A stretch of 64,000 nucleotides of DNA from Nocardioides sp. JQ2195 (GTDB lineage: Bacteria; Actinomycetota; Actinomycetes; Propionibacteriales; Nocardioidaceae). Of this stretch, positions 5,285-24,192 are shown one piece after another. The notes beneath the pieces were generated by a model. That model saw nothing but the letters and a program-made list of their open reading frames with translations. It was not told the DNA's origin and did not search any database. The DNA lies in NCBI RefSeq assembly GCF_012272695.1, contig NZ_CP050902.1, positions 2,976,001-3,040,000 on the forward strand, in the 5' to 3' direction. A program made the translations under genes and the position numbers. Every line of letters begins with the position of its first letter. The first letter of the stretch is position 1.

Positions 5285-6385
5285 TCAGCCGAGGTCGACG
5301 ATGGCGGCCACGGGACCGCCGCCCTCCGGGCCCTGGTGTGCGGCCGAGACCGACACGAAGACCGCCGGGTCGCCGGTCACGGCGGCGGTCACGCCGCCGA
5401 CGGCCGCCTTGATCTGCCGGTGCCAGTGCACGTCGGAGTCGTCGAGCATCGCGTTGCGGCGACCGCGGACCGTGCCGTCCTGGGAGGCCTCACACTTGAG
5501 GAACAGGTTCACCAGTCGACCGTCGAGGTCACTGTGGTGCGGCCGCTCGGGCAGCTCGAGCCCAGCATCCTTGATCGCCTCCCACAGGCCGTCCTGGTCG
5601 AGGGCGTCCTTCATCACCGAGTGGCCGATGCGGTACCGGCCACCGACACCCGGCGCGTTGCCGACCACGACGACCTGCGCCACGTCGAGCTCGACCCCCG
5701 ACGAGCACGACGCCACGGCCGAGTAGAGCTCCCGGTTGTGCATGACGTCGTCGTCGGTGGGCATCTCGATCTCATCCAGGGCGACGGCGATGCCCAGCGC
5801 CGTACATCCGTTGGAGAGGTCCATCGACTCGTGGGTGTGCTCGGTCCAGACCGTCTTGCCGCGCGACTTGGCGTCGCGGATGGTGTGGATCGTCAGCAGC
5901 GGCGTCTTCGTCTGCACGTAGTGCACGTCGCCCGGGTCGGTGATGCCGGCCTTCTCCATCGCCACCTTGACCGCGTCCGCGACCTTGGTGACCATCGGCG
6001 TGCGCCCGATCTCCTCGGGCAGCAACGGCTCGCTCATCGCGAAGCCGACGGTGAGGCGGGGCTCGTCGGTGGGTATCGCGTCCTCGTCGGGAACGGTCGC
6101 GAAGATGGTGGCGTGCGGGCTGATCACTCCGTCGGTGCCACCGGACCAGACGATCGGGATCTGCTTGACCTGCTCAGCAGGTGCACCCTTGTCGACGAGC
6201 ACCTCACGGAACGCCCGGTCGGAGATGATGCGGGTGTAGTCGTTGACGCCACCGTTCCCCTCGGTCTTGCCGATGATCGCGATCACCCGGTCGGCGTGCA
6301 TGACCCCGTCGTCGATCAGCTTCGCCAGCTCACTGGCGTCCGCGACGGAGTGGATCGGGACCTTGCGTACTTCGATGGCGGGCAT
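5285..6385 (-). CDS. Ring-opening amidohydrolase of the barbiturase / cyanuric acid hydrolase family
   Basis: 366-residue member of the small family that hydrolyses the barbiturate or cyanurate ring. The family fold has three similar domains, each giving a Lys-Ser pair. Candidates visible here are Lys40 with Ser81 ([11 protein letters not shown]), Lys160 with the SCSSG segment at 226-230, and Lys297 with the [13 protein letters not shown] segment at 345-357, which also carries the family's metal-site glutamate. The start at 6385 has a good ribosome site (GAAAGGA); the frame stays open further upstream but has no such site. It is the last gene of a minus-strand operon, after carbamate kinase and HyuA/HyuB. 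Sequence alone does not separate barbiturase from cyanuric acid hydrolase; the neighbouring nucleobase permease and molybdenum hydroxylase favour barbiturase (barbiturate to ureidomalonate). Confidence 0.88.
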
Positions 6386-6428
6386 GGAGTGTTCCTTTCG
6401 TGGTGTGGTGTCGCGCAGGCTCGATCGC

Positions 6429-7382
6429 TCAACCACCGTTTGAGTTGGGCAGGACGACGGTGCCGGTGGTGCCGGCCACGGCGTCGAGGATGGTGTCGAG
6501 GTCGCTGATCACGGCGTAGCGACCGCCGCTCTCGACGAACCGGCAGGCGGCATCCACCTTGGGGCCCATCGATCCGCTCGCGAAGTGCCCGGCGGCGGCC
6601 ATCGTCCGCAGGTCCTCGACCGAGACCTGGCCGATCGGCTCGGCGTCAGGCGTGCCGAACCGGAGCACGGCGTGGGGCACGTCGGTGGCGATCACGAGCA
6701 CGTCGGCCTCGACGGTGGCCGCGAGAAGTGCCGCGCCGAGGTCCTTGTCGATGACCGCCTCGACACCGACCAGCCCGGCTTCGGAACGCACCACCGGGAC
6801 ACCACCGCCGCCGTTGGCGATCACGATGAATCCGGCGTCGACGAGGGCACGCACCGCCGGGCCGTCGAGGATCTCGCGTGGCTCGGGCGAGGCGACCACG
6901 CGCCGCCAGCCCTTCTCACCGCGGTCCTGCCAGGTCTCGCCGTGCTCGATCAGCACGGCCGCGGCATCCTTGTCGAGGAACCGGCCGATCGGCTTGCTGG
7001 GGTGGGTCAGCCCCGGGTCGTCGGCATCGACGAGGGTGCGGGTCACCACCGCCGCGCTGCGCCGGTCGGAGCCGTGCCGGGCGAGCTCGTCGTCGAGGGC
7101 GTCCATCAGGACGAAGCCGAGGGTGGCCTGGGTCTGGGCGCCGCACCAGTCGAGCGGGACCGGAGGGACCACGGTCGCGGCCAGCTCGTTCTTGACCAGC
7201 AGGTTGCCGACCTGTGGCCCGTTCCCGTGGGTGATCACCACGTCCACCGGATCACGGGTGCGCGTCACCAGCCGTGCCACCGCTGCCATCGCCTTCCTCG
7301 CCGCGGCGATCTGGTCACCGGGGCGGGCCCGGCCGTCCGCACTCGTCATGGCGTTGCCACCCAACGCGAGCAGGACCCTCAT
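6429..7382 (-). CDS. arcC: Carbamate kinase
   Basis: 317-residue amino-acid kinase family protein that interconverts carbamoyl phosphate plus ADP with carbamate plus ATP. Diagnostic segments are ALGGNAM near the N-terminus, HGNGPQVG at about residue 50 and [10 protein letters not shown] at about 215; length is normal for the family. The ATG at 7382 overlaps the stop of hyuB as ATGA, so I reject the longer upstream reading, which is arginine-rich shadow sequence. No arginine deiminase or ornithine carbamoyltransferase gene is nearby, so its carbamoyl phosphate most likely comes from the catabolic locus itself, plausibly from the AllFGH-like genes at 20.4-24.2 kb. By family function it would recover ATP from that pathway. 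Confidence 0.92.
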
Positions 7383-9412
7383 CGTGAGGACTCCATGAAG
7401 TCGACGTCGGCGGCGTCGGCTCCCCCGGACAGGCGGGCGTAGCCCGGCCCGCGGTCGAAGAACGCCGTGCCGGGGACCGGGCGCGAGGCACGTTCTGCCG
7501 TCGTGCGGTCCGGGTCGTGGTCGAGGGTGTCGTCCTCGACGGAGCCGGTGAGCACCACGCCGTAGTCGGCGAGCGCGGCCTCGGGCGACACCTTCTGCCA
7601 CACCACGTCGCGTACGACGAGTGCCGGGTCGCGGTCGAGCGGGTCACCCCAGCCGCCGCCCCCCGTCGTACGGATCCGGATCACCTCGCCGGCCTTGACC
7701 GGCTCTGCGTCGGCAAGGGCATCGACCACGCGCTCGGCGGGGCCACCCGGGTCGATCACCACGTCGAACGGCTTGCCGGCCCGGCCGCCCCTGACCCCCC
7801 AGCACGCCAGGATCGAGCGGTCCGCGATCGACATGAAGTGGCCGTCCTTGAGCATGCGCAGGTGCTTCTCGTAGCCGAGTCCGCCGCGGAACTGGCCGGC
7901 GCCGCCGGAGTCCATGGCCAGGCCGAGCTTCTCCACGAGGAACGGGAAACGGCTCTCGGTGAACTCCGACGGGAGGTTCCGGGAGTCGGGCACCACGTGG
8001 ATGGTGTCCTCACCGTCCGCGTAGTAGCGCCCACCCGACCCGCCGCCCAGGACCTCACGCATCAGGTAGGGCTCGCCCTGCCGGTCCTCGCCGTAGACGC
8101 CGGTGTAGCGGATCGTCTCCTGGTCGGCGGGCATCCGGCCGTCGACTGCCTTGGCGAGCACGCCGGCCAGCACGCCCAGGAGTCTCAGGATCACGAACGT
8201 GCGGGCGTTGGTCGGGGCCGGGAAGACCGGCGTCAGCAACGTGCCCGGCGGCGGGAAACGCATCTCGATCAGCGGCACCACGCCCTCGTTGACGTCGAGC
8301 TCGGCCATTCGTTCGGGAGACTCGGCGAGGTTGCGGAGGATCGGGGCCAGCCACTTCTTCAGGAAGTTGCCGTCGCTGTAGTCACCGCAGTGGTTGATCG
8401 GCCCCTTGGCCTGGGGCGAGGTGCCGTCGAAGTCGAGCACCAGGCGCTCGCCGTCGGGGTCGTCGGGGCCGGTGCGCGTCATCGTGATGCGTTGCGCGAA
8501 CAGCTGCGGCTCGTCCACGCCGTCGTGCTCGGCGTAGTCCTCCCACACCCATTCTCCGACGGGTATCCGGGAGAGGATCTCGCGGCGGTAGGTCTGCGTG
8601 GTCCGGTCGATGATCGCGTCGAAGGCCGACTCGACCGCGTCGACGCCATACCTCTCGAACAGCTCACCCAGGCGTCGCGCGCCCATCAGGCAGGCCGAGC
8701 ACTCGGCGTCGAGGTCGGCGGCTAGGCTGTCCGGCATCCGCGAGTTGCGGGTCATGATCGCCAGCGCGGACTTGTTGGGGGTGCCGGCGTCCCAGAGCTT
8801 GATCGGCGGCACCATCAGGCCCTCTTCATAGACGGAGGTCGCGCCGCTGGGCATGGAGCCGGGCACGCACCCGCCGATGTCGTCGTGGTGGCCGAAGGCC
8901 TGCACGAACGCGACCACCCTGCCGTCGTGGAAGACCGGGACCGTCACGCAGAGGTCCGGCAGGTGGCCGATGCCGCCCTCGGAGCGGTAGACGTCGTTGT
9001 GGAAGAACACGTCGCCCTCCCGCATCTCCTCCACCGGGAAGTCGCGCGCCACCGGGTGCACCAGCGCGGAGTAGGAACGCCCGGTCAGCTTGCGCAGCAA
9101 CCGGTCGTGGATGCCGGCCCGGAAGTCGTGGGCGTCGCGGATCATCGGGCTGCGACTGGTGCGCCCGATCGCCGTCTCGACCTCGAGCTCCACGGCGGCC
9201 AGGCTGCCCTGGACGATCTCCACGAGCACCTGCTCGGCGCTGGCACCGGCGTCGGCGGTGAGGGTGCCGAACGGGAAGTCCGTCGGCGCCCGCCGGGACC
9301 CGGTGCCGGCGCCTGCACCCTCGGTGGTTGAGGGAGCCGCACTCTCGGTGGTTGAGGAAGGCGCGCCAGCGCCTGTCTCGAAACCACCCGCACCCGAAGA
9401 TGTCGGTTCCAT
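7379..9412 (-). CDS. hyuB: Hydantoinase B / oxoprolinase family subunit
   Basis: 677-residue HyuB-type subunit, partner of the upstream HyuA. ATP-dependent HyuA/HyuB enzymes hydrolyse cyclic amides such as N-methylhydantoin or 5-oxoproline, and the family also includes acetone carboxylase subunits. Conserved stretches include FFHNDVYRSEGGIGHLPD, FGHHDDIGGCVPGS and NHCGDYSDGNF, with GGGGWGDPLDRDP toward the C-terminus. The ATG overlaps the hyuA stop as TGATG. The first 40 or so residues are unusual: a Ser/Thr/Gly/Ala-rich low-complexity tract encoded largely by a copy of a hairpin repeat (9347-9388) plus a half copy. The conserved domain begins only near FPFGTL, so the native start may once have been further in. 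The substrate is unknown. Confidence 0.88.
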   Translation of the reverse strand: MEPTSSGAGGFETGAGAPSSTTESAAPSTTEGAGAGTGSRRAPTDFPFGTLTADAGASAEQVLVEIVQGSLAAVELEVETAIGRTSRSPMIRDAHDFRAGIHDRLLRKLTGRSYSALVHPVARDFPVEEMREGDVFFHNDVYRSEGGIGHLPDLCVTVPVFHDGRVVAFVQAFGHHDDIGGCVPGSMPSGATSVYEEGLMVPPIKLWDAGTPNKSALAIMTRNSRMPDSLAADLDAECSACLMGARRLGELFERYGVDAVESAFDAIIDRTTQTYRREILSRIPVGEWVWEDYAEHDGVDEPQLFAQRITMTRTGPDDPDGERLVLDFDGTSPQAKGPINHCGDYSDGNFLKKWLAPILRNLAESPERMAELDVNEGVVPLIEMRFPPPGTLLTPVFPAPTNARTFVILRLLGVLAGVLAKAVDGRMPADQETIRYTGVYGEDRQGEPYLMREVLGGGSGGRYYADGEDTIHVVPDSRNLPSEFTESRFPFLVEKLGLAMDSGGAGQFRGGLGYEKHLRMLKDGHFMSIADRSILACWGVRGGRAGKPFDVVIDPGGPAERVVDALADAEPVKAGEVIRIRTTGGGGWGDPLDRDPALVVRDVVWQKVSPEAALADYGVVLTGSVEDDTLDHDPDRTTAERASRPVPGTAFFDRGPGYARLSGGADAADVDFMESSR
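9347..9388. repeat. Interspersed hairpin element, copy 1 (inside hyuB)
   Basis: 42-nt unit with GGTGGTTGAGGA at one end and GTCTCGAAACCACC at the other; the outer GGTGGTT and AACCACC are inverted repeats. Between them lies a perfect inner hairpin AGGCGC-GCCA-GCGCCT. An extra copy of the head (CGGTGGTTGAGG) occurs about 25 bp earlier at 9322-9333. The unit lies in frame in the 5' end of hyuB and encodes part of its low-complexity N-terminal extension. A second copy sits in hyuA. Confidence 0.8.
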
Positions 9413-11529
9413 CAGCCCTCCCGCGTCACGATGATGTTGAGGAACGCGTCAATGCGAGCCCGGAACCCCGGGTGCAAGGGCACCGTCGAACCGAACTCCT
9501 CGATGATCGCCGGGCCGGCGAGCTCGTGGCCGGGCGCCAGGTCCGGGCGCCAGAAGACCGGCGTGTCGACGTACCCGTCGGACACCTCGAAGCACACTTG
9601 ACGGGCGCCGTGGTTTCGAGACGGTCGCTGCGCGACCTCCTCAACCACCGACCATTTCTTGATCTCGGGCCGCTGGATCGGGCCCACCCCGGAGACTCGG
9701 AGGTTGACCCACTCGACCTGTTGTCGCGGGTCGTCAGCGAAGTCGTAGCCGTAAAGCGTGCGGTGCTCGGCGTGGAAGCGCTCGGCCACCTCCGCCAGCA
9801 GGGCGCTGTCGATGGCGCCCTCGGGCAGCGACACCCTGACCTCGAAGGCCTGTCCGAAGTAGCGCAGGTCGGCGGTTCGCAGGAACTGGTGCTCGGTGCC
9901 GGGAAAGCCCTCCTTGGTCAGCGCCGCACGGGCCCGGCCGCAGAGGTCGTCGTAGACCCCGGCCAGGTCGGCGGCATCGACGTCGTCGTGCAGCCGCACG
10001 TGGGTCTGGACGTAGTCGTTCTTCACGTCGACGGTGAGGAGGCCGAACGCGGACACGTTGCCGGGGTTGGGTGGCACCAGCACTGCCCGCAGGCCCAGGA
10101 TGTCGGCCAACCGGCACAACAACAGGGATCCCGATCCACCGAAGGTGGTGAGGGTGAAGTCGCGGACGTCCAGCCCCCGCTTGACCGTGACCGCGCGCAA
10201 CGCGTTGGCCTGGTTCCAGGCAGAGATCTCGAGCACGCCGGCCGCACAGGCCTCGGGGGTGAGTCCGAGCTCGTCGGCCAGGGCACGGATGCCGGAGGCC
10301 GCTGCCTCCGTGTCGAGTGGGATCTCGCCGCCGAGCAGGTGCGGCGGGACCCGGCCGAGGAACACGTGGGCGTCGGTGATGGTGACCTCGTCGCCGCCCT
10401 TGGCGTAGCACAGCGGACCCGGGTCGGCCCCCGCTGAGTGCGGGCCCACCTTGAGCGCTCCTTCCGGGGAGAGCCAGGCGATCGAGCCGCCTCCGGCTCC
10501 GACGGTGACGACGTCGATCATGGGGATCTTGGAGGGGAAGGCGCCCACGCTGCCCTCGGTGGTCAGGGTCGGCTCGCCGTCGACGACCACGCTGACGTCG
10601 GTCGACGTGCCGCCGCCGTCGCTGGTCAGCACCCGGTCGAAGCCGGCGACCTTGGCGATCAGGGCGGCACCGAGCGCACCCGCAGCCGGGCCGGAGAGGA
10701 CGGTGCTGATCGGCTGGTGGACGACCTCGTCGGCGCTGAGCACGCCACCGTTCGACTTCATCACGTAGAACGGCACCCGCCTTTCGCCGTCGGTCGAGGC
10801 GTAGGCGTCGAGCCGGTCCTTGATGTTGGTGACATAGGTGCCCAACCGTGGCTTCACGGCGGCATCGACGAGCGTGGTCATCGCGCGTTCGTACTCGCGG
10901 TACTCCAGCAGCACCTCGCTGCTCAGGGAGACCACCGCGTCGGGGTGCTCCTCGCGCAGCACCGACAGCATGGCCTCCTCCTGGGTCGAGTCGGCATAGG
11001 AGTGGAGGAAGCAGACGGCGAGGGTGTTGATGTCACGCTGGCGGAACCAGCGCGCCACCAGCCGGGCTCCGGCCTCGTCGAACGGGCGGACCTCTGCACC
11101 GGTGTGGTCCAGTCGCCCGCCGACTCCCTTGACCAGGTGCCGGGGAACGATGCGATCGGGCTTGACCCAGAAGTAGGAGTTGCCGTAGCCGTCGGGGACC
11201 GACTGCCGGGCGATCTCGAGCATCGCCTCGTAGCCCTCGGTGGTGATGAACCCGAGGGCTCCCACCTTGCCCTCCAGGAGCTGGTTGGTGGCGACGGTCG
11301 TCCCGTGGCTGACGGCGGTCAGGGCGTCACCGCGGCCCGGCGGCAGGCCAAGCAGCCCGAGGACCTTCTCGATGCCGGCCATGAAACCGTCGGCCGGGTT
11401 GCCGGGGGTCGAGGGCGTCTTGGTGGTGACCAGCTCGCCCGTCTCCTCGTCGAGCGCCACGACATCGGTGAAGGTGCCGCCGGTGTCGATGCCGACGCGG
11501 ATGCGGCGCTGCCGGGAACCCGTTGCCAT
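9412..11529 (-). CDS. hyuA: Hydantoinase A / oxoprolinase family subunit
   Basis: 705-residue HyuA-type subunit of an ATP-dependent cyclic-amide hydrolase. The N-terminus has the actin-like ATPase phosphate loop DTGGTFTD at residues 15-22, then SHGTTVATNQLLEGK, DGGGTSTDVSVV and GGGSIAW. I chose the ATG at 11529; the 14 further residues upstream have no family similarity that I can see. It is followed without a gap by hyuB. Around residues 627-640 the protein carries a segment (WSVVEEVAQRPSRNHG) encoded by the second copy of the hairpin repeat, inserted in frame in what looks like a variable surface loop shortly before the conserved AGPAIIEEFGSTVPLHPG block. In this locus it may open or process a pyrimidine- or hydantoin-like ring, but its substrate cannot be read from sequence. 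Confidence 0.9.
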   Translation of the reverse strand: MATGSRQRRIRVGIDTGGTFTDVVALDEETGELVTTKTPSTPGNPADGFMAGIEKVLGLLGLPPGRGDALTAVSHGTTVATNQLLEGKVGALGFITTEGYEAMLEIARQSVPDGYGNSYFWVKPDRIVPRHLVKGVGGRLDHTGAEVRPFDEAGARLVARWFRQRDINTLAVCFLHSYADSTQEEAMLSVLREEHPDAVVSLSSEVLLEYREYERAMTTLVDAAVKPRLGTYVTNIKDRLDAYASTDGERRVPFYVMKSNGGVLSADEVVHQPISTVLSGPAAGALGAALIAKVAGFDRVLTSDGGGTSTDVSVVVDGEPTLTTEGSVGAFPSKIPMIDVVTVGAGGGSIAWLSPEGALKVGPHSAGADPGPLCYAKGGDEVTITDAHVFLGRVPPHLLGGEIPLDTEAAASGIRALADELGLTPEACAAGVLEISAWNQANALRAVTVKRGLDVRDFTLTTFGGSGSLLLCRLADILGLRAVLVPPNPGNVSAFGLLTVDVKNDYVQTHVRLHDDVDAADLAGVYDDLCGRARAALTKEGFPGTEHQFLRTADLRYFGQAFEVRVSLPEGAIDSALLAEVAERFHAEHRTLYGYDFADDPRQQVEWVNLRVSGVGPIQRPEIKKWSVVEEVAQRPSRNHGARQVCFEVSDGYVDTPVFWRPDLAPGHELAGPAIIEEFGSTVPLHPGFRARIDAFLNIIVTREG
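9610..9649. repeat. Interspersed hairpin element, copy 2 (inside hyuA)
   Basis: 40-nt unit, opposite orientation to copy 1. On the plus strand it reads GTGGTTTCGAGAC, then the hairpin GGTCGC-TGC-GCGACC, then TCCTCAACCACC. The outer flanks match copy 1, while the inner stem differs on both arms so that base pairing is kept. It is inserted in frame within hyuA. Confidence 0.8.
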
Positions 11530-11575
11530 GCCCCGATTCAATCCGCCCCGAGCCACTCGCTGCGACGGCAAGTTG

Positions 11576-11602: not shown

Positions 11603-11645
11603 GGTCACGATTGCCCTCGCCCGGCTGGCGGTTCCGACCGACTGT

Positions 11646-13037
11646 TCAGCGGTGGGGCGTCGTGATCGACTCGAACGCCGCCGCCACCTCGAGCAGCCGG
11701 CGCTCACCACCGTGCGGGGCGACCAGCTGGATCCCCACCGGCAGCCCGTCGTCGGTGGTGCCGGCCGGCACGGAGATCGCCGGGCACCCGGTGACGGTGA
11801 TGAAGTAGGCCGAGCGCATCCAGTCGAGGTAGGTGTCCATGGGGTGGCCGTTGATCTCGGTCGGGAACTCCCGGTCGGCCGGGAACGGGGGCACCTGGGA
11901 GACGGGGAGGACGAGGAGGTCGCGGTCGGCGAAGAACAGTCGCATGCGTTCTGCCAGGGCGGTTCGCTGCGCGTAGGCGCGGGCCACGTCGGCGCCGGTG
12001 AGCGACTCCCCGGCCCGGATGTTGTCGGCCAGCGAGTCCTTGAAGGAGCCGGGGTTCTCGGCGAGGAGCCGACCGAACTTCGCCTGGAAGTGCCAGGCCC
12101 GCAGGGTCCTGAAGGTGTCCTCGGCCAAGCCGAGATCGGGGTGGGCGCGCACCACCTGAGCACCGGCACCGCTGAACGACGACGCGGACTCCTCCACCAC
12201 CCGCGCCACCTGTGCATCGACCTCGAAGGCGCCCCCGAGGTCGACCGACAGGCCCACGCGGACACCCTCGAGCGAGCCACGCAGGGGTGGTGCGAAGGCC
12301 GAGCCGGGGTCCCCGAGGGCCAGCGGGGCCCGCGGGTCGGGACCGGCCTGGACGGACAGCAGCAGGGCCAGGTCACCCACGTTGCGAGCCAGCGGTCCAC
12401 CCACCGACGTGGACTCCCACTGGTTGGCCGTCGGCCACTCCGGCACCCTCCCCAGGGACGGCCGCAAACCGACCACGCCGCAGAAGGAGGCGGGGTTGCG
12501 CAGGGAGCCGCCCATGTCGGACCCGTCGGCGAGCGGGACCATGCCGGCCGCCAGCGCACAGGCGGCGCCCCCGCTCGAGCCACCGGCCGACCTTGTGGGG
12601 TCGTGGGGGTTCAGCGTGGTGCCGAAGACCGTGTTAAAGGTGTGCGAGCCCGCCGCGAACTCCGGCACGTTGGTCTTGCCGACCACCACGACACCGGCGC
12701 GGCGTACTCGCTCGACGATCAGGTCGTCGGCCTCCGGGACGTGGTCCGCGAACAGCGGTGAGCCGTACGTCGTCCGCCAGCCGGCCACGGCGTGGGTGTC
12801 CTTGAACGCGAACGGCAGGCCGTGCAGCGGGCCGACCACTTCCCCCGAGGCCAAGGACCGATCGGCCGCAGCCGCGCCCTCCCGTGCCCGTTCCTCGTCG
12901 AGCGACACGACGGCGTTCAGCTCCGGGTTGTGTTCCCCGATGCGATCGAGGTGCAGGTCGAGCAGCTCGCGTGCGGAGATCTCGCGGTCACGCAGGGCCG
13001 CGACCATCTCCCGGGCCGTGGAGTCGACGGTGACCAC
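11646..13037 (-). CDS. Amidase signature family hydrolase
   Basis: 463-residue amidase signature enzyme. The catalytic Lys lies in FAFKDTHAVAG, and the Gly/Ser-rich signature with the cis-Ser and nucleophilic Ser reads SAGGSSGGAACALAAG followed by DGSDMGGSLRNPA. I chose the GTG at 13037, 4 nt after the coxG-like stop; the frame upstream is arginine/tryptophan-rich shadow. No strong ribosome site is visible, consistent with translational coupling. It is the last gene of the permease-oxidase block. In the proposed pathway it would hydrolyse a linear amide after ring opening (malonamate or ureidomalonate). Amidase substrates are hard to predict, so only the class is firm. Confidence 0.88.
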   Translation of the reverse strand: MVTVDSTAREMVAALRDREISARELLDLHLDRIGEHNPELNAVVSLDEERAREGAAAADRSLASGEVVGPLHGLPFAFKDTHAVAGWRTTYGSPLFADHVPEADDLIVERVRRAGVVVVGKTNVPEFAAGSHTFNTVFGTTLNPHDPTRSAGGSSGGAACALAAGMVPLADGSDMGGSLRNPASFCGVVGLRPSLGRVPEWPTANQWESTSVGGPLARNVGDLALLLSVQAGPDPRAPLALGDPGSAFAPPLRGSLEGVRVGLSVDLGGAFEVDAQVARVVEESASSFSGAGAQVVRAHPDLGLAEDTFRTLRAWHFQAKFGRLLAENPGSFKDSLADNIRAGESLTGADVARAYAQRTALAERMRLFFADRDLLVLPVSQVPPFPADREFPTEINGHPMDTYLDWMRSAYFITVTGCPAISVPAGTTDDGLPVGIQLVAPHGGERRLLEVAAAFESITTPHR

Positions 13038-13041
13038 GGCG

Positions 13042-16109: not shown

Positions 16110-16666
16110 GGCGCCTCCTCCTCGGCCGCGATCGAGCCTGGCCGAGACGGTCGCCCGTCCTCGGAGCTCGATCCTTCCGCGATCAGGTCGGCGGCACGGT
16201 GGACCGCCTTGGCGATGTTCTGGTAGCCGGTGCACCGGCACAGGTTGCCGGCGACCATCTCTCGGGCCTCGACCTCGCTCGGCCGCGGGTTGTCACGCAG
16301 CCCGGCGGTGATCGTGGTGAGGAAGCCGGGGGTGCAGAAGCCGCACTGCAGCCCGTGGCAGTCCCTGAACGCCTGCTGGACCGGGCCGAGCGTGCCGTCC
16401 TCCGCGGCCAGGCCCTCCACCGTGGTGAGCTCCTGGCCGGACACGGTCACGGCGAACAACAGGCAGGACCGCACCGGGGCGCCGTCGAGCAGGACGGTGC
16501 AGGCACCGCACACCCCGTGCTCGCAACCGACGTGGGTGCCGGTCAGCCCGAGGTCGTGGCGCAGGGCGTCACTGAGCAGTCGGCGCGCCGGCACCGTCAC
16601 CGCATGGGCTGCGCCGTTGACGTTCAGGAGGATGTCGTGGGTCTCCTCGGGAGCTTCCTGGGTCAT
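16106..16666 (-). CDS. Molybdenum hydroxylase small subunit, two [2Fe-2S] clusters
   Basis: 186-residue iron-sulfur subunit. The plant-ferredoxin type cluster is bound by CEHGVCGAC plus a Cys about 12 residues later (VRSC); the second by CGFCTPG and CRCTGY. These are the standard eight cysteines of CoxS/XdhC-type subunits and all are present. It carries electrons from the molybdopterin site to FAD. The ATG at 16666 overlaps the FAD subunit stop (ATGA) and its own stop overlaps the large-subunit GTG, so the three subunits are coupled. A C-terminal Glu/Ala/Ser-rich tail of about 25 residues follows the conserved domain. Confidence 0.93.
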   Translation of the reverse strand: MTQEAPEETHDILLNVNGAAHAVTVPARRLLSDALRHDLGLTGTHVGCEHGVCGACTVLLDGAPVRSCLLFAVTVSGQELTTVEGLAAEDGTLGPVQQAFRDCHGLQCGFCTPGFLTTITAGLRDNPRPSEVEAREMVAGNLCRCTGYQNIAKAVHRAADLIAEGSSSEDGRPSRPGSIAAEEEAP

Positions 16667-17544
16667 CGGTCCTCCTCGTGCCGCGCCACCGCGTCGTCGT
16701 ACGCCGCGCGCAGGACGCGGCGGGTGAGCACCCTGCCCAGCTGGGCTCGGTAGGCGGCGCTGGCATGGATGTCGGCGGCCGGGTCGAGCCGGGTGAGGGC
16801 GAGGTCGGCAGCGGCATCGAGCGCGTCCTCGCTCGGCTCTCCTGCGGAGAACGCCTCGGAGAGGTCGACCGCGATCGGCACGTCGCCCATGGACCAGTAC
16901 GACGTGCGCGCCGAGGTCACCTGACGTGACTCGTCGATGCCCACGAGCGCTGCGACCCCGCACACCGCATAGTCGCCGTGTCGACGGGCCACCTCGTCGC
17001 AGGCGATCCCGAATCCCTTCTGCAGGGCCGGGAAGTGCGCCGAGACGGCCAGCTCGCCGGCGCGGAGCGAGGACTCGAGCGGTCCCACGACGAGGTCGGC
17101 GGCAGGGATCTCTCGCTCCCCCTCGCCGGAGAGGACGGTCAGGGCTCCGTCGAGCAGGAGCAGGACGGCCGGCATCTCTGCGGCGGCGTCGGCGTGCACC
17201 AACGACCCGACCGTGGTGCCGCGGTTGCGAATCGTGGGATGGGCCACGAGGCGCAGCGCCCGGGCGACCAGTGGCTGTGTCCGGCGTACGCCGGGGTCGG
17301 TCTCGACCTGGGCATGGCGGGCCAGCGCGCCGACACGCACGCCGTCCTCGTCGGCCCGCACCGTGGCCAGCTCCGCAAGCCCGTTGATGTCGACCAGCAG
17401 GGACGGCGAGGCGAGTCGCATCGAGAGCAGTGGGACCAGGCTCTGTCCACCGGCGAGCACCTTCGCGTGCGGGTCCGAGGCGAGCGCGTCGAGGGCTTCG
17501 TCGAGCGTCGTCGGGCGGGAGTAGGCGAAGGGCGCCGGCTTCAC
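16663..17544 (-). CDS. Molybdenum hydroxylase medium (FAD-binding) subunit
   Basis: 293-residue CoxM/XdhB-type subunit. The FAD-binding motif AGGQSLVP is at about residues 33-40 and the second FAD motif TIRNRGTTVGSLVHAD at about 107-122, both typical of the family; a CoxM C-terminal domain follows. The GTG at 17544 overlaps the permease stop (GTGA). Gene order medium-small-large followed by a coxG-like gene is the usual coxMSL-G arrangement. It passes electrons from the iron-sulfur subunit to the external acceptor, which is unknown here. Confidence 0.92.
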   Translation of the reverse strand: MKPAPFAYSRPTTLDEALDALASDPHAKVLAGGQSLVPLLSMRLASPSLLVDINGLAELATVRADEDGVRVGALARHAQVETDPGVRRTQPLVARALRLVAHPTIRNRGTTVGSLVHADAAAEMPAVLLLLDGALTVLSGEGEREIPAADLVVGPLESSLRAGELAVSAHFPALQKGFGIACDEVARRHGDYAVCGVAALVGIDESRQVTSARTSYWSMGDVPIAVDLSEAFSAGEPSEDALDAAADLALTRLDPAADIHASAAYRAQLGRVLTRRVLRAAYDDAVARHEEDR

Positions 17545-18995
17545 GGGGTCTTGGTCACCTCTTCCGGCGCCAGCTCGTCGCGACGCCCCTTCACCAGGTG
17601 GAAGTAGACGATGACCATGATCGTGCCGAGGGCGATGCCGCCGAGCTCGAAGTCGTCGGTGACCTGGAGGGTGACGCCCCCGATGCCCGCGATCAGTCCC
17701 CCGGCCAGGCCCACCAGGTTGACCGGGTTGCCGAAGTCCACCCGGTTCTCCACCCAGATCTTGGCGCCCACGAGACCGATCATGCCGTAGAGCACAACCG
17801 TGATGCCGCCCAGCACGCCGCCGGGGATGGCGTTGACGATCGCGCCGAACTTCGGGCACAGCCCGAGCAGGATCGCCACGATCGCCGCGACGTAGTAGGC
17901 CGCGGTCGAATAGATGCGGGTGGCGCTCATGACGCCGATGTTCTCGGCGTACGTCGTGGTGGGCGAGCCGCCGAAGGCACTGGCGAAGGCGGTGGCGATA
18001 CCGTCCGCCCCGATCGCGCGGCCCATGTAGGGGTCGAGGTCGTCGCCGGTCATCTCCGCGACCGCCTTGACGTGGCCGGTGTTCTCGGCGATCAGCGCGA
18101 TCACGCCCGGCAGCACCAGGAGGATGAAGGTGAGCGAGAAGCTCGGGCCGTGCACGACGTCCACCCCGTCGGCCAGCACGCCTCCGGGCAGTCCGATCCA
18201 GTCGGCGTCGCCGACCGCTCCCCAGGCCCAGATCCGGTCGTGGTTGAAGGCGGCCTCCACGCAGTTCGGGTTCCCGCCCGGCGGGCACGGCACCATCGTC
18301 GACTCCCCGTCGACGATGTCGTGCAGGACCAGGTTCTGGCCCGGCAGGATGCTGTTGATCGTGCCGAAGGAGAGGTCGGCGAGCCACGACACCAGGTAGC
18401 CGAAGACCAGCGCGAGGAAGACCGCGATGCGGGACCAGAAGCCCGGCAGCAGGACAGCGAAGAGGACCAGTGCGGTCGCGGTGATGATCGCGATCCACTG
18501 GTCCTGCGGCCAGTAGACGCCGGCCACGACGGGTGCCAGGTTGAAGCCGATCAGCATGACCACGGCGCCGGTGACGGCCGGAGGCAGGATCGCGTGGATC
18601 AGCCGCGAGCCGGCGAAGTGCACCAGCGCGCCGACCGCGGCGAGGACGAGACCGGCGACGAGGATCGCCCCGGTGACGTCGGCGGAGTCGCCACCCTGCG
18701 TGCGGATCGCGGCGACCGCGGCCACGAAGGAGGCGCTGGTGCCCAGATAGCTGGGCACCCGGTTGGAGACCATCAGCAGGAACATGATGGTGCAGATGCC
18801 CGAGAACATGATGGCGAGGTTGGCGTCCAGGCCCATCACCAGTGGGAAGACGAAGGTCGCGCCGAACATCGCCACCACGTGCTGGGCACCGAGCCCGATC
18901 GTGCGCGGCCAGCTCAGTCTCTCCATCGGCCCGACGGCCTCGCCGGGCGGTGGGGTCTTGCCGCCGTGGACGACCTTCCACGTGAACATGGACAT
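17541..18995 (-). CDS. NCS2 family nucleobase permease (uracil/xanthine type)
   Basis: 484-residue polytopic membrane transporter with about 14 hydrophobic segments. Family signatures include GLGAQHVVAMFGATFVFP near the N-terminus, the conserved Glu in IALIAENTGH and the FGGSPTTTYAENIGVM motif that lines the substrate site in UraA-like carriers. An unusual loop of about 50 residues with two Cys (VPCPPGGNPNC) lies in the middle. The ATG at 18995 has a strong ribosome site (GGAGGG). As first gene of the oxidase block it most likely brings in the nucleobase that the enzymes consume. The family covers uracil, xanthine and urate carriers; specificity is not clear from sequence. Confidence 0.9.
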   Translation of the reverse strand: MSMFTWKVVHGGKTPPPGEAVGPMERLSWPRTIGLGAQHVVAMFGATFVFPLVMGLDANLAIMFSGICTIMFLLMVSNRVPSYLGTSASFVAAVAAIRTQGGDSADVTGAILVAGLVLAAVGALVHFAGSRLIHAILPPAVTGAVVMLIGFNLAPVVAGVYWPQDQWIAIITATALVLFAVLLPGFWSRIAVFLALVFGYLVSWLADLSFGTINSILPGQNLVLHDIVDGESTMVPCPPGGNPNCVEAAFNHDRIWAWGAVGDADWIGLPGGVLADGVDVVHGPSFSLTFILLVLPGVIALIAENTGHVKAVAEMTGDDLDPYMGRAIGADGIATAFASAFGGSPTTTYAENIGVMSATRIYSTAAYYVAAIVAILLGLCPKFGAIVNAIPGGVLGGITVVLYGMIGLVGAKIWVENRVDFGNPVNLVGLAGGLIAGIGGVTLQVTDDFELGGIALGTIMVIVYFHLVKGRRDELAPEEVTKTP

Positions 18996-19042
18996 GCGAA
19001 CCCTCCTCGGTCGGTGGCCCACTGCCACTTCTGCCCGACGCT

Positions 19043-19058
19043 AGTGATCCACGTCACT
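19043..19058. promoter_or_regulatory. CRP/GlxR-type palindrome upstream of the permease
   Basis: AGTGATCCACGTCACT: a perfect GTGA-N6-TCAC core, the half-site arrangement recognised by CRP/GlxR family regulators. It lies about 50 bp before the permease start and next to a possible minus-strand -10 box (TAGCGT, 19036-19041). This would link the catabolic operon to carbon status. One match to a degenerate motif is weak evidence alone. Confidence 0.4.
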
Positions 19059-19088
19059 CCCGGACACTGGCGAGTTCTGCCGAACGGA

Positions 19089-19103
19089 CCAGCACGGTGC
19101 TGG
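19089..19103 (-). terminator. Short hairpin between pucR and the permease gene
   Basis: Perfect 7-bp inverted repeat CCAGCAC-G-GTGCTGG located 22-36 bp after the pucR stop. It may attenuate read-through from pucR into the permease operon or be an operator. Small and without a T-run. Confidence 0.35.
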
Positions 19104-19124
19104 CAGAGGTTGGGCGAAGCGTGG

Positions 19125-20402
19125 TCAACCGGTCACCTCGAGGACCTGGAGGGCCACGGCGACGTTGAGCCGCAGGTGCGGATTGCTCGTGAACGGACCG
19201 AGGATCCGCTCCAGCTTGCCGACCCGGTAGCGCATCGTGTTGTAGTGGAAGAACTGCAGACGAGCGGCCTCGGCCACGTTGACGTTGGTGTCGAGGAGGT
19301 GCTGCAGCGTGGCGCGCAGGTCGGCTGCCTCCTCGGTGTCCGAGGCCAGCTCGCCCAGCACGTCGTGGGCGAAGGCCCGGAGCTCCTCCTCGTCGGTCAC
19401 CAGCGCGATCAGCCGGTGAAGGCCGAGGTCGTCGAACCAGGTCGTGCTGCGTCCACCGTTCATCCGTCGCCCGACGCGAACCGCCCGACCGGCCTGGTTG
19501 TAGGCCGCGGGCAGGTCTGCGAGGTCCGTGACCACGCGACTGATCCCGACCGAGAAGGGCCGTCGCCCACCACCACGATCCCCGGCCACCGCTGAGACCG
19601 TCTCCGACACCGCGGCCCTGAGCGCGGGGACGTCGGGCTCGCCGTCGGCGTCGAGCGGAGCGGGGAGCAGCGTCACCACCTCCGAGGAGAAGTCAGCCGA
19701 TGGGATGCCCGGGTCGCGGCCCCGGCAGACCTGGCTCCACGCCGCGGAGAAGCGTTCCTGCCAGGCTCGACTGACCCGGCTGGACACCGGGGTCTCGTCA
19801 GGGTCGATCTCGGCGGCGAGCACCACCATCGGCCTGGCCAGCACCCATCCGAAGGTCTCGGCGTGCTCGAGCACGAACTCGACGGGACCTGCCCGGCCCA
19901 GGAAGATGTCGCGCAGGAAGTCACCGCGGTACTTGTTCTCCACGGCCTGGACGGCCTGCTCACGCGTGATCAGCAGGGCGGCGACCGTCGCGGCTCGCTC
20001 CAGGGCCTGCAGGTCGGCCGCGTCCAGCACCCCGGCAGGTCTGATCGACACCAGCCGGGCGAGGTCGGTGCCCCCCGCCGCGATCGCGGTCGAGCGGACC
20101 TCGCCGTCGGCCAGCGCCAACGAGCCCTTGGCCCGCTCGACCCGGATCCGTCCCGTGGGATCGACCAGGTCGGCCTCGTCGAGGAGGGTCCGGTGCCACG
20201 CGGTCGCGGCCGCTGCCCGCTCGCGACCGTCGGTCGACGTGACCAGGATCCCGACGTCGAGGGCCTCGGCCACTCGGGCCGCGATCTGGTCCAGGTCGCC
20301 GCCGTCGAGCACCAGCTGGGTCAGGCCCTGGTGCAGGGCATCGATGCGGGCGGTTATCAACTTCTGCACCTCCCTCCCCGAAGTGTTGGCAATGCTTACC
20401 AT
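19125..20402 (-). CDS. PucR family transcriptional regulator
   Basis: 425-residue regulator. The C-terminal PucR-type helix-turn-helix is clear (AEAARLQFFHYNTMRYRVGKLERILG is spread over about residues 375-402), preceded by a GGDEF-like central region; an N-terminal domain of about 200 residues probably senses a ligand. PucR proteins control purine and other nucleobase catabolism in Gram-positive bacteria. It is divergent from the DUF2877-FdrA-DUF1116 genes, with only 48 bp between the two starts, and lies directly upstream of the permease operon, so it is the obvious local regulator. A TACCGT box 7 nt before the ATG and no Shine-Dalgarno sequence suggest a leaderless transcript. Longer upstream reading is a shadow. 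Confidence 0.9.
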   Translation of the reverse strand: MVSIANTSGREVQKLITARIDALHQGLTQLVLDGGDLDQIAARVAEALDVGILVTSTDGRERAAAATAWHRTLLDEADLVDPTGRIRVERAKGSLALADGEVRSTAIAAGGTDLARLVSIRPAGVLDAADLQALERAATVAALLITREQAVQAVENKYRGDFLRDIFLGRAGPVEFVLEHAETFGWVLARPMVVLAAEIDPDETPVSSRVSRAWQERFSAAWSQVCRGRDPGIPSADFSSEVVTLLPAPLDADGEPDVPALRAAVSETVSAVAGDRGGGRRPFSVGISRVVTDLADLPAAYNQAGRAVRVGRRMNGGRSTTWFDDLGLHRLIALVTDEEELRAFAHDVLGELASDTEEAADLRATLQHLLDTNVNVAEAARLQFFHYNTMRYRVGKLERILGPFTSNPHLRLNVAVALQVLEVTG

Positions 20403-20450
20403 TCGTCGGACGGTATCCCAGCCGCTAGCGTCCGAGAGGTGGATTCCGTG

Positions 20451-21290
20451 ATGCTGGCCCCGGCTGCCGACCGGGTGGCCGTGCAGGTGGCCGACCAGGT
20501 GGCCGACCAGGTGGCCGTGCAGGAGCGGCTCGGGGGCGCGGCGACCGTTCGGGTCCGCGACGCGCTCGCCGGGCCTCGGCGGAGCGCACGGGTGGTGCAC
20601 TCCGGCCGCGACGCCCTCTACGTCGAGCTGCCCGCTGTCGCGGGCAGGGGGCCGGGTCTGGTCGGGGTGCTCTCCCGCCACGCCACCCACGTCCCGTGCG
20701 GCATTCGCACCCTGCTGGACCGTGTCGACGAGGTCGATCAGGGGGCCCTGCTGTCGATCAGCGACGGGGTGCTCCGACTCCCCCGCCACGACCTGGCGGT
20801 GGCCCGCATCGTCGACGCGTCCGTCCCGCGGTCCTCGGCGATCGGTGCCGCCCTCGTCGAGCAGCTCCGTGACCGCTTGGAGGGTGCCCGAAGGCTCGTG
20901 GGCGCGGAGCTGCCCGACCGCGCCCTCGACGCGTTGCGCACGGGCGACCCGTCTGCCGTCAGGTCGCTGCTCGGTCGCGGCAGCGGGCTCACCCCGCTCG
21001 GCGACGACGTGCTCGCGGGGTGGCTGGCGGTCGGACGGACCGCGCGCGTCGCTGGCTGGACCGCGGTGGCAGAACAGGTCAGACGCCTGGCGCAGCGACG
21101 TACCACGCTGCTGTCAGGGACGCTCCTGGCCGATGCGACGCGCGGCGAGGTGATCCCGGAGCTCCGCCGCCTGTTGCTCGACGGCCCACCGGCCCTGGAG
21201 CCACTCCTGCGCGTGGGCCACACGTCCGGCTGCGGGCTGGCCGTCGGCGCATTCCTGGCCCTGGCCGAACCGGAGGGGAGCCTGCGATGA
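20451..21290 (+). CDS. DUF2877 protein, AllH-like carbamoyltransferase subunit
   Basis: 279-residue DUF2877 protein with the family signature GSGLTPLGDDVLAGWL in the middle. E. coli YlbF, a DUF2877 protein, is reported as the AllH subunit of oxamate carbamoyltransferase together with FdrA (AllF) and YlbE (AllG). I chose the ATG at 20451 because GAGAGG lies 9-10 nt before it; a GTG at 20448 is equally possible. Near the N-terminus four 12-bp tandem units (20475-20522) encode VAVQ-VADQ-VADQ-VAVQ. It overlaps the next gene by 4 nt and is divergent from pucR. Predicted role: one subunit of an acyl-urea carbamoyltransferase. Confidence 0.85.
   Translation: MLAPAADRVAVQVADQVADQVAVQERLGGAATVRVRDALAGPRRSARVVHSGRDALYVELPAVAGRGPGLVGVLSRHATHVPCGIRTLLDRVDEVDQGALLSISDGVLRLPRHDLAVARIVDASVPRSSAIGAALVEQLRDRLEGARRLVGAELPDRALDALRTGDPSAVRSLLGRGSGLTPLGDDVLAGWLAVGRTARVAGWTAVAEQVRRLAQRRTTLLSGTLLADATRGEVIPELRRLLLDGPPALEPLLRVGHTSGCGLAVGAFLALAEPEGSLR
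20475..20522. repeat. Four 12-bp tandem repeats in the DUF2877 gene
   Basis: Units GTGGCCGTGCAG, GTGGCCGACCAG, GTGGCCGACCAG, GTGGCCGTGCAG. In-frame and near the start codon, so gain or loss of units would change N-terminal length without a frameshift. Confidence 0.8.
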
Positions 21291-22801
21291 CCACAGATGT
21301 CGTCTCCCACGTCGAGCTGCGTCCGGGGGCGTACGCCGATTCGGTGGCGCTGCTGCGGGTGAGCCGGGACGTGGCCGCGGTGGCCGGGGTCGCTGCTGCG
21401 CAGGTGGCCATGGCGACCGAGCTCAACCTCGACGTGCTCCGCGGGATGGGGTTCACCCCTCCAGCCGGTGCCACCGCCAACGACATGGTCGTGGCACTGC
21501 ACCTGGACGGTGCCGATGCCCTCGAACCCGCGCTGCTCGCCGTGGAGCGCGCCCTGTCGGCGACGAGGCGCGCGGGCACCGGCAGTCCGGGCGGCGCCGG
21601 CACGGTCGAGGTCGAGCCGCCCCGCACGACGGGGTCCGCGTTCCGCCGCGAGGGCGGCGGGCCGACCGGTGCGCTGGCACTCGTGTCCGTGCCCGGGGCC
21701 AGCGCCTTCGTGGAGGCGATGGATGCGCTCGACGCCGGCCGCGACGTGATGGTCTTCAGCGACAACGTCCCGCTCGAGCAGGAGCTCGTCCTCAAGCGCA
21801 CCGCCGCTGAGCGCGGGCTCCTGGTGATGGGACCCGACTGCGGCACCGCAGTCGTCGGTGGCCTCGGTCTCGGGTTCGCCAGTGCGACCGGGCCGGGGCC
21901 GGTCGGGATCGTCGCTGCATCCGGCACCGGGTGCCAACAGCTGATGGCGCTCCTCGACCATGCAGGCGTGGGGGTGGGGTCGGCCCTCGGCGTCGGCGGA
22001 CGTGACCTGTCCGCCGACGTCGGAGGGCTCTCAACGCGGGAGTCCCTGCGCAGGCTCGACGCCGACACCGAGGTCGAGCTGGTCGTCGTCGTCTCCAAGC
22101 CGCCCTCGGCCGAGGTCGCGGCATCCCTCCGTGAGTACGCCGCCACGCTCGGGACGCCCGTCGAGCTCGCCCTGCTCGGCGAGGGCGAGCCCGACCTGAC
22201 CGCTGCTGCGGAAGCGGTGCTGGAGCGGCTCGGCCGGCCGGTTCCCGAATGGCCGCAGTGGGGCGCGGCGTCACCACGCGTCAGGAGCAGCCGGCCGGGC
22301 GAGGGATCCCTGCTGCGCGGCCTCTTCGTCGGCGGCACCCTGTGTGACGAGGCGATGCTGCTCGCCACCGCAGCCCTGGGCCCGATCCGGAGCAACATCC
22401 CGCTCAGCCCCGACCTCGCCCTCGGCCCCGACCTCACGGCGGACGCCCACCTGATGGTCGACTTCGGTGACGACACCCTCACCGCCGGCCGGGCACACCC
22501 GATGATCGACCCGACCCTGAGGCTCGAGCACCTCGGCCGGCAGGCTGGCGACCCACGCACCGGCGTACTGCTCCTCGACGTGGTGCTCGGGCACGGCGCC
22601 GAGGCCGATCCTGCCGCGGGACTGGCCCCGGCGATCGAGCAGGCCCGTTGCCCGGTGGTGGTCGCCCTGGTCGGGACCTCCGCGGACCCCCAGGGGCTGG
22701 ACCGGCAGGCGACGGTGCTCTCCGCGGCAGGCGCCGAGGTCCACCTGTCCAACGCAGCCGCGTGCCGGCGCGCCCTCGAGCTGATCGGAGACGCCCGATG
22801 A
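21287..22801 (+). CDS. fdrA: FdrA-like protein, AllF-like carbamoyltransferase subunit
   Basis: 504-residue FdrA family protein related to the ligase-type domains of succinyl-CoA synthetase; MGPDCGTAVVGG and GIVAASGTGCQQ resemble its nucleotide/CoA-ligase loops. E. coli FdrA is reported as AllF of the oxamate carbamoyltransferase that phosphorolyses oxalurate to oxamate and carbamoyl phosphate. ATG overlaps the DUF2877 stop and the gene's own stop overlaps the DUF1116 ATG (both ATGA), so the three form a coupled operon. With carbamate kinase and a ring-opening amidohydrolase in the same locus, the natural substrate may be ureidomalonate. Function here is inferred. Confidence 0.88.
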   Translation: MTTDVVSHVELRPGAYADSVALLRVSRDVAAVAGVAAAQVAMATELNLDVLRGMGFTPPAGATANDMVVALHLDGADALEPALLAVERALSATRRAGTGSPGGAGTVEVEPPRTTGSAFRREGGGPTGALALVSVPGASAFVEAMDALDAGRDVMVFSDNVPLEQELVLKRTAAERGLLVMGPDCGTAVVGGLGLGFASATGPGPVGIVAASGTGCQQLMALLDHAGVGVGSALGVGGRDLSADVGGLSTRESLRRLDADTEVELVVVVSKPPSAEVAASLREYAATLGTPVELALLGEGEPDLTAAAEAVLERLGRPVPEWPQWGAASPRVRSSRPGEGSLLRGLFVGGTLCDEAMLLATAALGPIRSNIPLSPDLALGPDLTADAHLMVDFGDDTLTAGRAHPMIDPTLRLEHLGRQAGDPRTGVLLLDVVLGHGAEADPAAGLAPAIEQARCPVVVALVGTSADPQGLDRQATVLSAAGAEVHLSNAAACRRALELIGDAR

Positions 22802-24192
22802 CCACACCCACGCGGGTCGTCAGCACCGGTGCCGCCCTGTTCGCGGAGACCGTCGCCGCCCAGGCCGTCCCCGTCACTCGTGTCGACTGGCGGCCCCCGA
22901 TGCCCGGCACCGAGGCCGACCTCGCCATCGTGGCGGGCGACCCCTTGCGCAGGTCCGCGAACAACAGCGCGCTGGCTGCGATGCTCGGTGTGCAGGCCCT
23001 CCTCGTCGACGTCGCACCGGCATCGGAGGTGCTCGGCCTGCAACGGGGCGAGTTCCTGCACGCGGGGCCGCCGATCGAGTGGGCGAACGCATCGGGCCCC
23101 CTGCGGGGTGGTCTGATGGCGGGCGCGGCGCTGGAGGGGCTGGTCGACGACCCGGAGGACGCCGTGGCCCTCTTCGAGTCCGGAGACGGGGTCACTCTCG
23201 AGCCCTGCCACCACCGCGGCACCGTGGGCCCGATGGCCGGCGTCGTCACCCCGTCCATGTGGATGTTCGTCCTCGAGGACCCGGCGACCGGGAGGAGGAC
23301 CCACTGCTCGCTCAACGAGGGCCTCGGCAAGGTGCTCCGCTACGGCGCCTACTCCCCCGAGGTGCTCGACCGGTTGCGCTGGATGTCGGCCGTGCTCGGA
23401 CCGGTCCTCCGGGCGGCCGTGCGCAGCAGTGACGCGGTGGACGCGACGGGGATCCTCACCCAGATGCTGCAGATGGGCGACGAGGCGCACAACCGCAACC
23501 GCGCCGGCACCCTGATGCTGCTGCGCGACCTGTCCCCCGCGATGGTCGGCTCCGGGTTCCCGTCCGCGGACGTGGCCGCGGCCCTGCGCTTCATCGGAGG
23601 CAACGACCACTTCTTCCTCAACGTGGCTATGCCGGTCTGCAAGCTGGCGCTCGACGCGGCCCGCGGCATCGAGGGCTCCACGATGGTCGTCGCGATGGCC
23701 CGCAACGGCACGGAGTTCGGCATCCAGACCTCGGGCACCGGCGACCAGTGGTTCACCGGCCCGGCCCAGGTCGCGGACGGTCTGTTCCTCGGCGACTACG
23801 GGCCCGAGGACGCCAACCCGGACATCGGTGACTCCGCGATCACCGAGACCGCCGGCATCGGCGGGTTCGCGATGGCGACCGCACCAGCCATCGTGCGACT
23901 GGTCGGGGGCAACGTGCCCGATGCGCTCGCCACCACCCGCCGCATGCACGAGATCACCCTCGGCGAGAACCCGCGCTGGTCGGTCCCGGTGCTCGAGTTC
24001 CAGGGCGTGCCCACGGGCATCGACGTCAGCCTCGTCTGCCGCACCGGCATCCTGCCCCAGATCAACACCGGCATGGCCGGCAGGAAGGCGGGGGTCGGGC
24101 AGGTCGGAGCGGGTCTGGTGACGCCGCCCGCCGAGATCTTCCCGCAGGCACTCGCGGAGCTGGCCAGCAGGACCCGCAGCCGAAGCGCCTGA
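22798..24192 (+). CDS. DUF1116 protein, AllG-like carbamoyltransferase subunit
   Basis: 464-residue DUF1116 protein, normal family length. Typical segments are NEGLGKVLRYGAYSPEV, MGDEAHNRNRAGTLML and FIGGNDHFFLN. E. coli YlbE, of this family, is reported as AllG of oxamate carbamoyltransferase. The start overlaps the fdrA stop (ATGA). It ends 4 nt before the convergent alkyltransferase-like gene, with no convincing terminator between them. It completes an AllH-F-G set under the divergent pucR promoter region. Confidence 0.88.
   Translation: MTTPTRVVSTGAALFAETVAAQAVPVTRVDWRPPMPGTEADLAIVAGDPLRRSANNSALAAMLGVQALLVDVAPASEVLGLQRGEFLHAGPPIEWANASGPLRGGLMAGAALEGLVDDPEDAVALFESGDGVTLEPCHHRGTVGPMAGVVTPSMWMFVLEDPATGRRTHCSLNEGLGKVLRYGAYSPEVLDRLRWMSAVLGPVLRAAVRSSDAVDATGILTQMLQMGDEAHNRNRAGTLMLLRDLSPAMVGSGFPSADVAAALRFIGGNDHFFLNVAMPVCKLALDAARGIEGSTMVVAMARNGTEFGIQTSGTGDQWFTGPAQVADGLFLGDYGPEDANPDIGDSAITETAGIGGFAMATAPAIVRLVGGNVPDALATTRRMHEITLGENPRWSVPVLEFQGVPTGIDVSLVCRTGILPQINTGMAGRKAGVGQVGAGLVTPPAEIFPQALAELASRTRSRSA

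Follow-up and report, generated by a model that had tools for sequence, protein, structure and literature searches.

Barbiturase and a urea-forming ureidomalonase were reportedly studied in Rhodococcus erythropolis by Soong et al. (2001, 2002). The described oxidative route of pyrimidine catabolism leads through these two enzymes to malonate and urea (PMC3758960), and an older report of the conversion of barbiturate to urea and malonate in mycobacteria is cited in PMC3706326. In Escherichia coli, the carbamoyltransferase AllFGH reversibly converts oxalurate and phosphate to oxamate and carbamoyl phosphate (PMC11326118). This report deals with a locus of Nocardioides sp. JQ2195 that harbours genes of both kinds. 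The locus lies in a stretch of 64,000 nucleotides (contig NZ_CP050902.1, positions 2,976,001 to 3,040,000 of the forward strand; G+C content 70%), termed the window, of a 4.08-Mb genome. Genome comparison makes it likely that the locus serves the degradation of uracil (perhaps thymine) with a phosphorolytic end, and we regard it as a variant of a known pathway, not as a new kind of system.

Gene content and predicted pathway

The first-pass annotation had placed a nucleobase permease, a three-subunit molybdenum (Mo) hydroxylase, a ring-opening enzyme of the barbiturase type, an amidase, HyuA/HyuB, carbamate kinase and three AllFGH-like genes in one locus under a PucR regulator. Pfam and NCBIfam scans recovered all of them within 19 kb (5285-24192) and added a CoxG-like gene that had been overlooked. 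The genes form two divergent arms. The minus arm is ordered PucR, permease, FAD, 2Fe-2S and Mo subunits, CoxG-like gene, amidase, HyuA, HyuB, carbamate kinase and ring opener, and the plus arm (20724-24192) consists of allH, allF and allG:

5285-6436, minus strand: barbiturase, PF09663 (AtzD/TrzD family; Pfam 477.6 bits), predicted to open the barbiturate ring to ureidomalonate
6429-7601, minus strand: carbamate kinase (AA_kinase), 40% identical to E. coli AllK/YbcF; TIGR00746 332 bits, below the cut-off of 358; PRK12352 296 bits, above the cut-off of 266
7379-9412, minus strand: HyuB, subunit of the ATP-dependent lactam/imide hydrolase type (Pfam Hydantoinase_B)
9412-11571, minus strand: HyuA, subunit of the same type (Pfam Hydantoinase_A)
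11646-13274, minus strand: amidase (Pfam Amidase, 359 bits), candidate malonamate (or ureidomalonate) amidohydrolase
13042-13713, minus strand: CoxG-like gene (PF06240, 87.8 bits)
13710-16241, minus strand: large subunit of the Mo hydroxylase (Pfam MoCoBD_1/2), candidate uracil dehydrogenase
16106-16666 (frame open to 16963), minus strand: 2Fe-2S subunit of the Mo hydroxylase (Fer2, Fer2_2)
16663-17538, minus strand: FAD subunit of the Mo hydroxylase (FAD_binding_5, CO_deh_flav_C)
17541-19028, minus strand: NCS2 nucleobase permease (Xan_ur_permease)
19125-20789, minus strand: PucR-type regulator (HTH_30, GGDEF_2), start uncertain, perhaps near 20429
20724-21290, plus strand: AllH-like carbamoyltransferase subunit (PF11392, 62.6 bits), start uncertain
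21287-22801, plus strand: AllF/FdrA-like carbamoyltransferase subunit (Ligase_CoA; PRK06091 FdrA 355 bits, below the cut-off of 433; compare FdrA in PDB 3dmy)
22798-24192, plus strand: AllG-like carbamoyltransferase subunit (PF06545, 310 bits)

The true start of carbamate kinase is probably near 7382, since the homologous part begins there, and that of the amidase probably lies at or below 13046. In the large Mo subunit, the homologous part begins at about 16106.

In the pathway that we propose, uracil (perhaps thymine) would be imported by the NCS2 permease and hydroxylated at C6 by the Mo hydroxylase, yielding barbiturate, the ring of which would be opened by barbiturase to give ureidomalonate. 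AllFGH would then transfer the carbamoyl group of ureidomalonate to phosphate, with carbamoyl phosphate and malonamate as products. From the former, ATP, ammonia and CO2 would be made by the carbamate kinase that is encoded beside barbiturase, whereas an amidase would split malonamate to yield ammonia and malonate. Ureidomalonate is a homologue of oxalurate, longer by one CH2 group, and each of the two is an N-acylurea that ends in a carboxylate. We infer all substrates, the direction of carbamoyl transfer and the malonamate step. The product of barbiturase is 3-oxo-3-ureidopropanoate (PMC3758960).

The proposal that the ring opener is of the barbiturase type has been borne out. The protein is identical to the barbiturase of PDB 5hwe at 312 of 363 residues (86%) and 85-86% identical to the barbiturases of four Rhodococcus genomes, including R. 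erythropolis NBRC 15567. At five positions, cyanuric acid hydrolases have R195, T321, R325, G345 and G346 where barbiturases have N, H, K, V and S/A (Peat et al., PMC3758960). In an alignment with AtzD numbering (the letters of AtzD are matched by an offset of 18 up to residue 86, 20 for K162 and 19 from 195 on), the ring opener carries N, H, K, V and S at these positions, as does 5hwe, i.e., the signature of barbiturase Group VI. For the barbiturase group PMC4051656 gives glutamine at the matching arginine, whereas position 195 is asparagine in both aligned proteins. A reading as cyanuric acid hydrolase was dropped, since the signature R/T/R/G/G is absent, even though the corresponding NCBIfam model is passed (see below); judged by its sequence, the ring opener is a barbiturase. 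The closest solved relative of the permease is uracil permease (189 bits, compared to 53 for the uric acid-xanthine permease).

Co-inheritance of barbiturase, AllFGH and carbamate kinase

As a check on the proposed combination, the first-pass annotation had named the co-occurrence of barbiturase with AllFGH-type and carbamate kinase genes, and this association was indeed found. Among 394 genomes drawn from the host's class and scanned for PF09663 and AllG, the former is present in 82 and the latter in 88: 75 genomes have both, 7 only PF09663, 13 only AllG and 299 neither. The corresponding Fisher p of 3e-58 overstates the association, because the genomes were treated as independent and phylogeny was left uncorrected. 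Within the host's own genus, 12 genomes possess barbiturase together with AllG, and 8 possess neither. Carbamate kinase, counted by TIGR00746 with E up to 1e-20, occurs in 73 of the 75 double-positive genomes, compared to 59 of the 319 others. Among 80 named barbiturase loci (the best 80 of 527), the kinase gene lies on the same strand as the barbiturase gene in 75, the two matched parts being no more than 162 bp apart. The remaining five loci are those of the four Rhodococcus and one (L055) in which barbiturase starts 450 bases from the contig end.

Most genomes with PF09663 only are no real exceptions to the link with AllG. Five of the seven hold proteins merely 35-41% identical to barbiturase (G031, 38%; G093, 41% and 37%; G100, 38%; G122, 35%; G347, 38%), and a sixth (G014), with a protein of 70% identity, is a genome that is 72% complete. 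The seventh, G206, is a true exception with a protein of 71% identity; in this genome (contig G206:C19, locus L130) carbamate kinase is encoded elsewhere, and there are two urease alpha matches.

In a tree, a branch with support 100/96 divides the AllG proteins of 20 barbiturase genomes from 13 AllG rows of barbiturase-less genomes, and the AllG of the window falls inside the barbiturase-linked clade. Where the places of both genes are known (72 double-positive genomes), barbiturase and AllG share a contig in 47, in 39 of these within 60 kb of each other. In the AllG-only genomes, no common pathway emerged among ten neighbour proteins of five loci. One such locus (L140 of G383) belongs to a genome without a barbiturase or carbamate kinase match; its neighbours include an amino acid permease and a gene of the glutamine synthetase type, and this carbamoyltransferase family may have another substrate there. 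In Nocardioides alcanivorans (locus L103, genome G464), the HyuB match is broken into three pieces and that of AllG into two that overlap, reflecting either assembly errors or a decaying locus.

Rhodococcus offers a natural test. When 50 named barbiturase genomes were queried for AllG, 48 of which were searched, AllG was detected in 44, mostly with one match, and the four without were the four Rhodococcus (L099, L113, L115, L117). Likewise, carbamate kinase matched in all 44 others and in none of these four. In all four Rhodococcus loci an amidase gene directly follows barbiturase (L117: 11221-12714), bearing in mind that the gene orders in barbiturase loci are approximate, as the crude open reading frame caller misses or overcalls genes. 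These amidases are about 40% identical to the window amidase, and we consider this gene a candidate for the ureidomalonase of Rhodococcus. Co-occurrence and the Rhodococcus exception together suggest that ureidomalonate probably meets one of two alternative fates: either it is hydrolysed, which yields urea, or it undergoes phosphorolysis to malonamate and carbamoyl phosphate. With somewhat less assurance, we favour the view that the phosphorolytic version prevails in the class, a version in which an AllFGH-family malonamate (ureidomalonate) carbamoyltransferase and carbamate kinase replace the Rhodococcus ureidomalonase; the genes shared by both versions would then include a candidate for the uracil/thymine dehydrogenase (the Mo hydroxylase), and the Rhodococcus amidase would be the candidate ureidomalonase.

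Orthologues and urease were sought in 80 genomes, comprising 39 with barbiturase and AllG, the four Rhodococcus, G206 and 36 others without barbiturase. The urease alpha subunit is present in all four Rhodococcus and in G206, in 14 of the 39 genomes with barbiturase and AllG, and in 13 of the 36 others. Comparison of the first group with the second gives a Fisher p of 0.01, in which Rhodococcus is counted four times though it is one lineage. A like pattern is known from enterics, where AllFGH and carbamate kinase are present in species that lack urease and absent from urease-positive Klebsiella pneumoniae, while E. coli O157:H7 has both AllFGH with the kinase and urease (Kim and Kim, PMC11326118). 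Viewed side by side, the two patterns make it seem that the swap between a hydrolase with urease and a carbamoyltransferase with carbamate kinase recurs in a second pathway.

The same 80 genomes link the Mo hydroxylase to barbiturase. An orthologue of its large subunit (at least 64% identity) is found in all 44 barbiturase genomes, including Rhodococcus and G206, and in none of the 36 barbiturase-less ones, where the best match reaches 41%. The subunit passes the NCBIfam model CODH_aero_grp5 (1518 bits), and among proteins of solved structure quinoline 2-oxidoreductase comes closest to it. We take the cysteine of the CoxL active-site loop to be the defining feature of carbon monoxide (CO) dehydrogenase. 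This residue is absent: the Mo subunit has PYRGAGR where CoxL (8uem) has VAYACSFR. The name CO dehydrogenase is therefore doubtful, all the more in view of the co-inheritance with barbiturase, and the enzyme is a natural candidate for the uracil/thymine dehydrogenase. Genes like the CoxG-like one also follow the Mo subunit in relatives, and the product probably serves the Mo hydroxylase as an accessory protein.

HyuA shows a similar distribution, with orthologues of at least 61% identity in 39 of 39 barbiturase and AllG genomes and in all four Rhodococcus, but neither in G206 nor in any of the 36 others. In R. erythropolis (L117, L170) it comes after the Mo subunit and the CoxG-like gene. Since HyuA is co-inherited also where AllFGH is absent, it goes with the pathway, and not with the step at which the two versions part. 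The nearest solved relatives are N-methylhydantoinase (7hk5) and 5-oxoprolinase; neither the relatives nor a literature search pointed to a role for HyuAB.

The window amidase is distributed more narrowly. Close orthologues (at least 68% identity) exist in 11 of the 39 barbiturase and AllG genomes, all in the host's family. Another 11 of the 39 have an unlinked match of 52-58%, and a 56% match is found also in the barbiturase-less genome G383. In the remaining 17 no amidase match exceeds 42%, though the cluster of G019, which is among the 17, contains a different amidase (L162). In several barbiturase loci, those of Rhodococcus included, a gene for a class III CoA-transferase adjoins one for an AccD/AccA-like carboxyltransferase (L156, 6749-9542; L117, 4328-7284). 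This pair would suit the activation and decarboxylation of malonate, which is suggestive only: the carboxyltransferase is widespread, with or without barbiturase, and in the window genome it is not linked to the locus.

By Pfam, the neighbours that border the locus are a gene for a UvrD-type helicase/nuclease (1905-5183) on one side and an MGMT-like gene (24197-24499) on the other. Outside the locus, a gene for an Immune inhibitor A-type metallopeptidase was noted at 27281-29545 (Pfam).

Weighing the alternatives

The strongest competitor is the classical oxidative route, in which the amidase would act as ureidomalonase, producing malonate and urea, and AllFGH and carbamate kinase would serve another substrate. 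It has the merit of being the described route for barbiturate, also cited for mycobacteria (PMC3758960, PMC3706326); PRK07486 is passed by the window amidase as well as by the one that adjoins barbiturase in Rhodococcus, and the window genome has urease. Yet, AllG and carbamate kinase track barbiturase over the 394 genomes and are missing in the four Rhodococcus, 25 of the 39 AllG-bearing barbiturase genomes yield no urease alpha match (urea carboxylase, which also serves the use of urea, was not searched for), and close orthologues of the amidase are confined to 11 of the 39. Thus, we consider the classical route improbable, if worth keeping in mind.

Slightly less credible is the view that AllFGH and carbamate kinase degrade oxalurate of purine or allantoin origin, as they do in E. 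coli, and share only the regulator and the neighbourhood with the pyrimidine genes. The AllFGH assayed so far does act on oxalurate (PMC11326118), and similar clusters of nitrifiers (allFGHK) have been read as oxalurate degradation (PMC12625717). However, there is no allantoin gene among the scanned genes of the locus (the search for such genes did not extend to the whole genome), the 8 genomes of the host's genus that lack barbiturase lack AllG as well, the barbiturase-linked AllG clade is separate from the AllG of barbiturase-less genomes, and carbamate kinase adjoins barbiturase.

That the ring opener is instead a cyanuric acid hydrolase in a triazine or biuret locus, where AllFGH would turn biuret into urea and carbamoyl phosphate, is hardly credible: the protein does pass the NCBIfam model NF052395 (cyanuric acid amidohydrolase; 471.7 bits, cut-off 360), which we read as too wide a model, and allFGHK neighbours biuret genes in nitrifiers (PMC12625717), but all five specificity residues and 86% identity to a barbiturase of solved structure, a permease of the uracil type and, by inference, the lack of an evident role for the Mo hydroxylase on cyanuric acid argue otherwise.

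Several observations weigh against degradation of uracil with a phosphorolytic end, besides the passed cyanuric acid model. The four Rhodococcus represent a single lineage. The window genome has urease, and therefore urea would not go to waste there; AllFGH is retained, moreover, in the 14 of 39 genomes that bear urease. In G206, barbiturase is accompanied by the Mo hydroxylase, but AllG and a HyuA orthologue are missing and no amidase gene adjoins barbiturase; 2 of the 75 double-positive genomes show no carbamate kinase match. The distance between AllG and barbiturase is 13-134 kb in 46 of the 72 genomes and 1.7 Mb in one, and in 25 the two genes are on different contigs. Some of the 44 named genomes have more than one copy of AllG, with two to four per genome. 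The equilibria of carbamoyltransferases favour carbamoylation (PMC4016543). Furthermore, the pathway rests on genome comparison, and the enzyme activities are predicted.

The idea of a phosphorolytic end with ATP recovery, as put forward in the first-pass annotation, thus stands in its core, which is supported by the barbiturase residues, the co-occurrence and the Rhodococcus exception. Its assignment of the amidase as malonamate hydrolase does not hold as a general rule, given the 11 genomes with a close orthologue, and HyuAB has no place in the proposed scheme. The annotation also knew of no description of this combination, and in the open-access literature searched we likewise met no title or opening of an abstract that joins barbiturase with AllFGH or carbamate kinase; as subscription journals and preprints were mostly uncovered, this is weak evidence of absence. 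The text that comes nearest is PMC12625717, with its reading of allFGHK in nitrifiers.

Comparison with known systems

If the proposed pathway is correct, the AllFGH family, to which one reaction was assigned in 2024, would gain a second substrate, and base catabolism would more than once have traded a hydrolase and urease for a carbamoyltransferase and carbamate kinase. Moreover, oxidative pyrimidine steps known by activity would obtain gene candidates, and two NCBI models (cyanuric acid amidohydrolase and CO dehydrogenase) would misname these genes.

Among the closest known systems is the oxidative pyrimidine pathway of Rhodococcus erythropolis, which comprises uracil/thymine dehydrogenase, barbiturase (EC 3.5.2.1) and ureidomalonase. 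Barbiturase (85-86% identity), Mo hydroxylase (63-65%) and HyuA (66-68%) of the four Rhodococcus resemble those of the window, and the Rhodococcus loci also have permease and PucR-type genes near by. In contrast to the window, the four Rhodococcus have no AllG or carbamate kinase match, and the amidase gene follows barbiturase directly.

The carbamoyltransferase and carbamate kinase of the locus are akin to the oxamic transcarbamylase AllFGH and the carbamate kinase AllK of E. coli, which act in the oxamate branch of allantoin catabolism. In both cases, the three subunits are encoded together and a carbamate kinase is part of the same system (identities of 37% for AllF, 44% for AllG and 32% over 114 columns for AllH), and both share the logic of nitrogen recovery without urease. 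Unlike their E. coli counterparts, the allHFG genes of the window are tied to barbiturase and the Mo hydroxylase and not to allantoin genes, their order is allHFG with the kinase gene apart, and the predicted substrate is ureidomalonate instead of oxalurate. Finally, the ureidoglycine carbamoyltransferase of Rubrobacter xylanophilus provides a precedent for base catabolism in which a phosphorolytic carbamoyltransferase and carbamate kinase replace a hydrolase; this enzyme, unlike that of the window, belongs to the aspartate carbamoyltransferase superfamily and operates in a purine pathway (PMC4016543).

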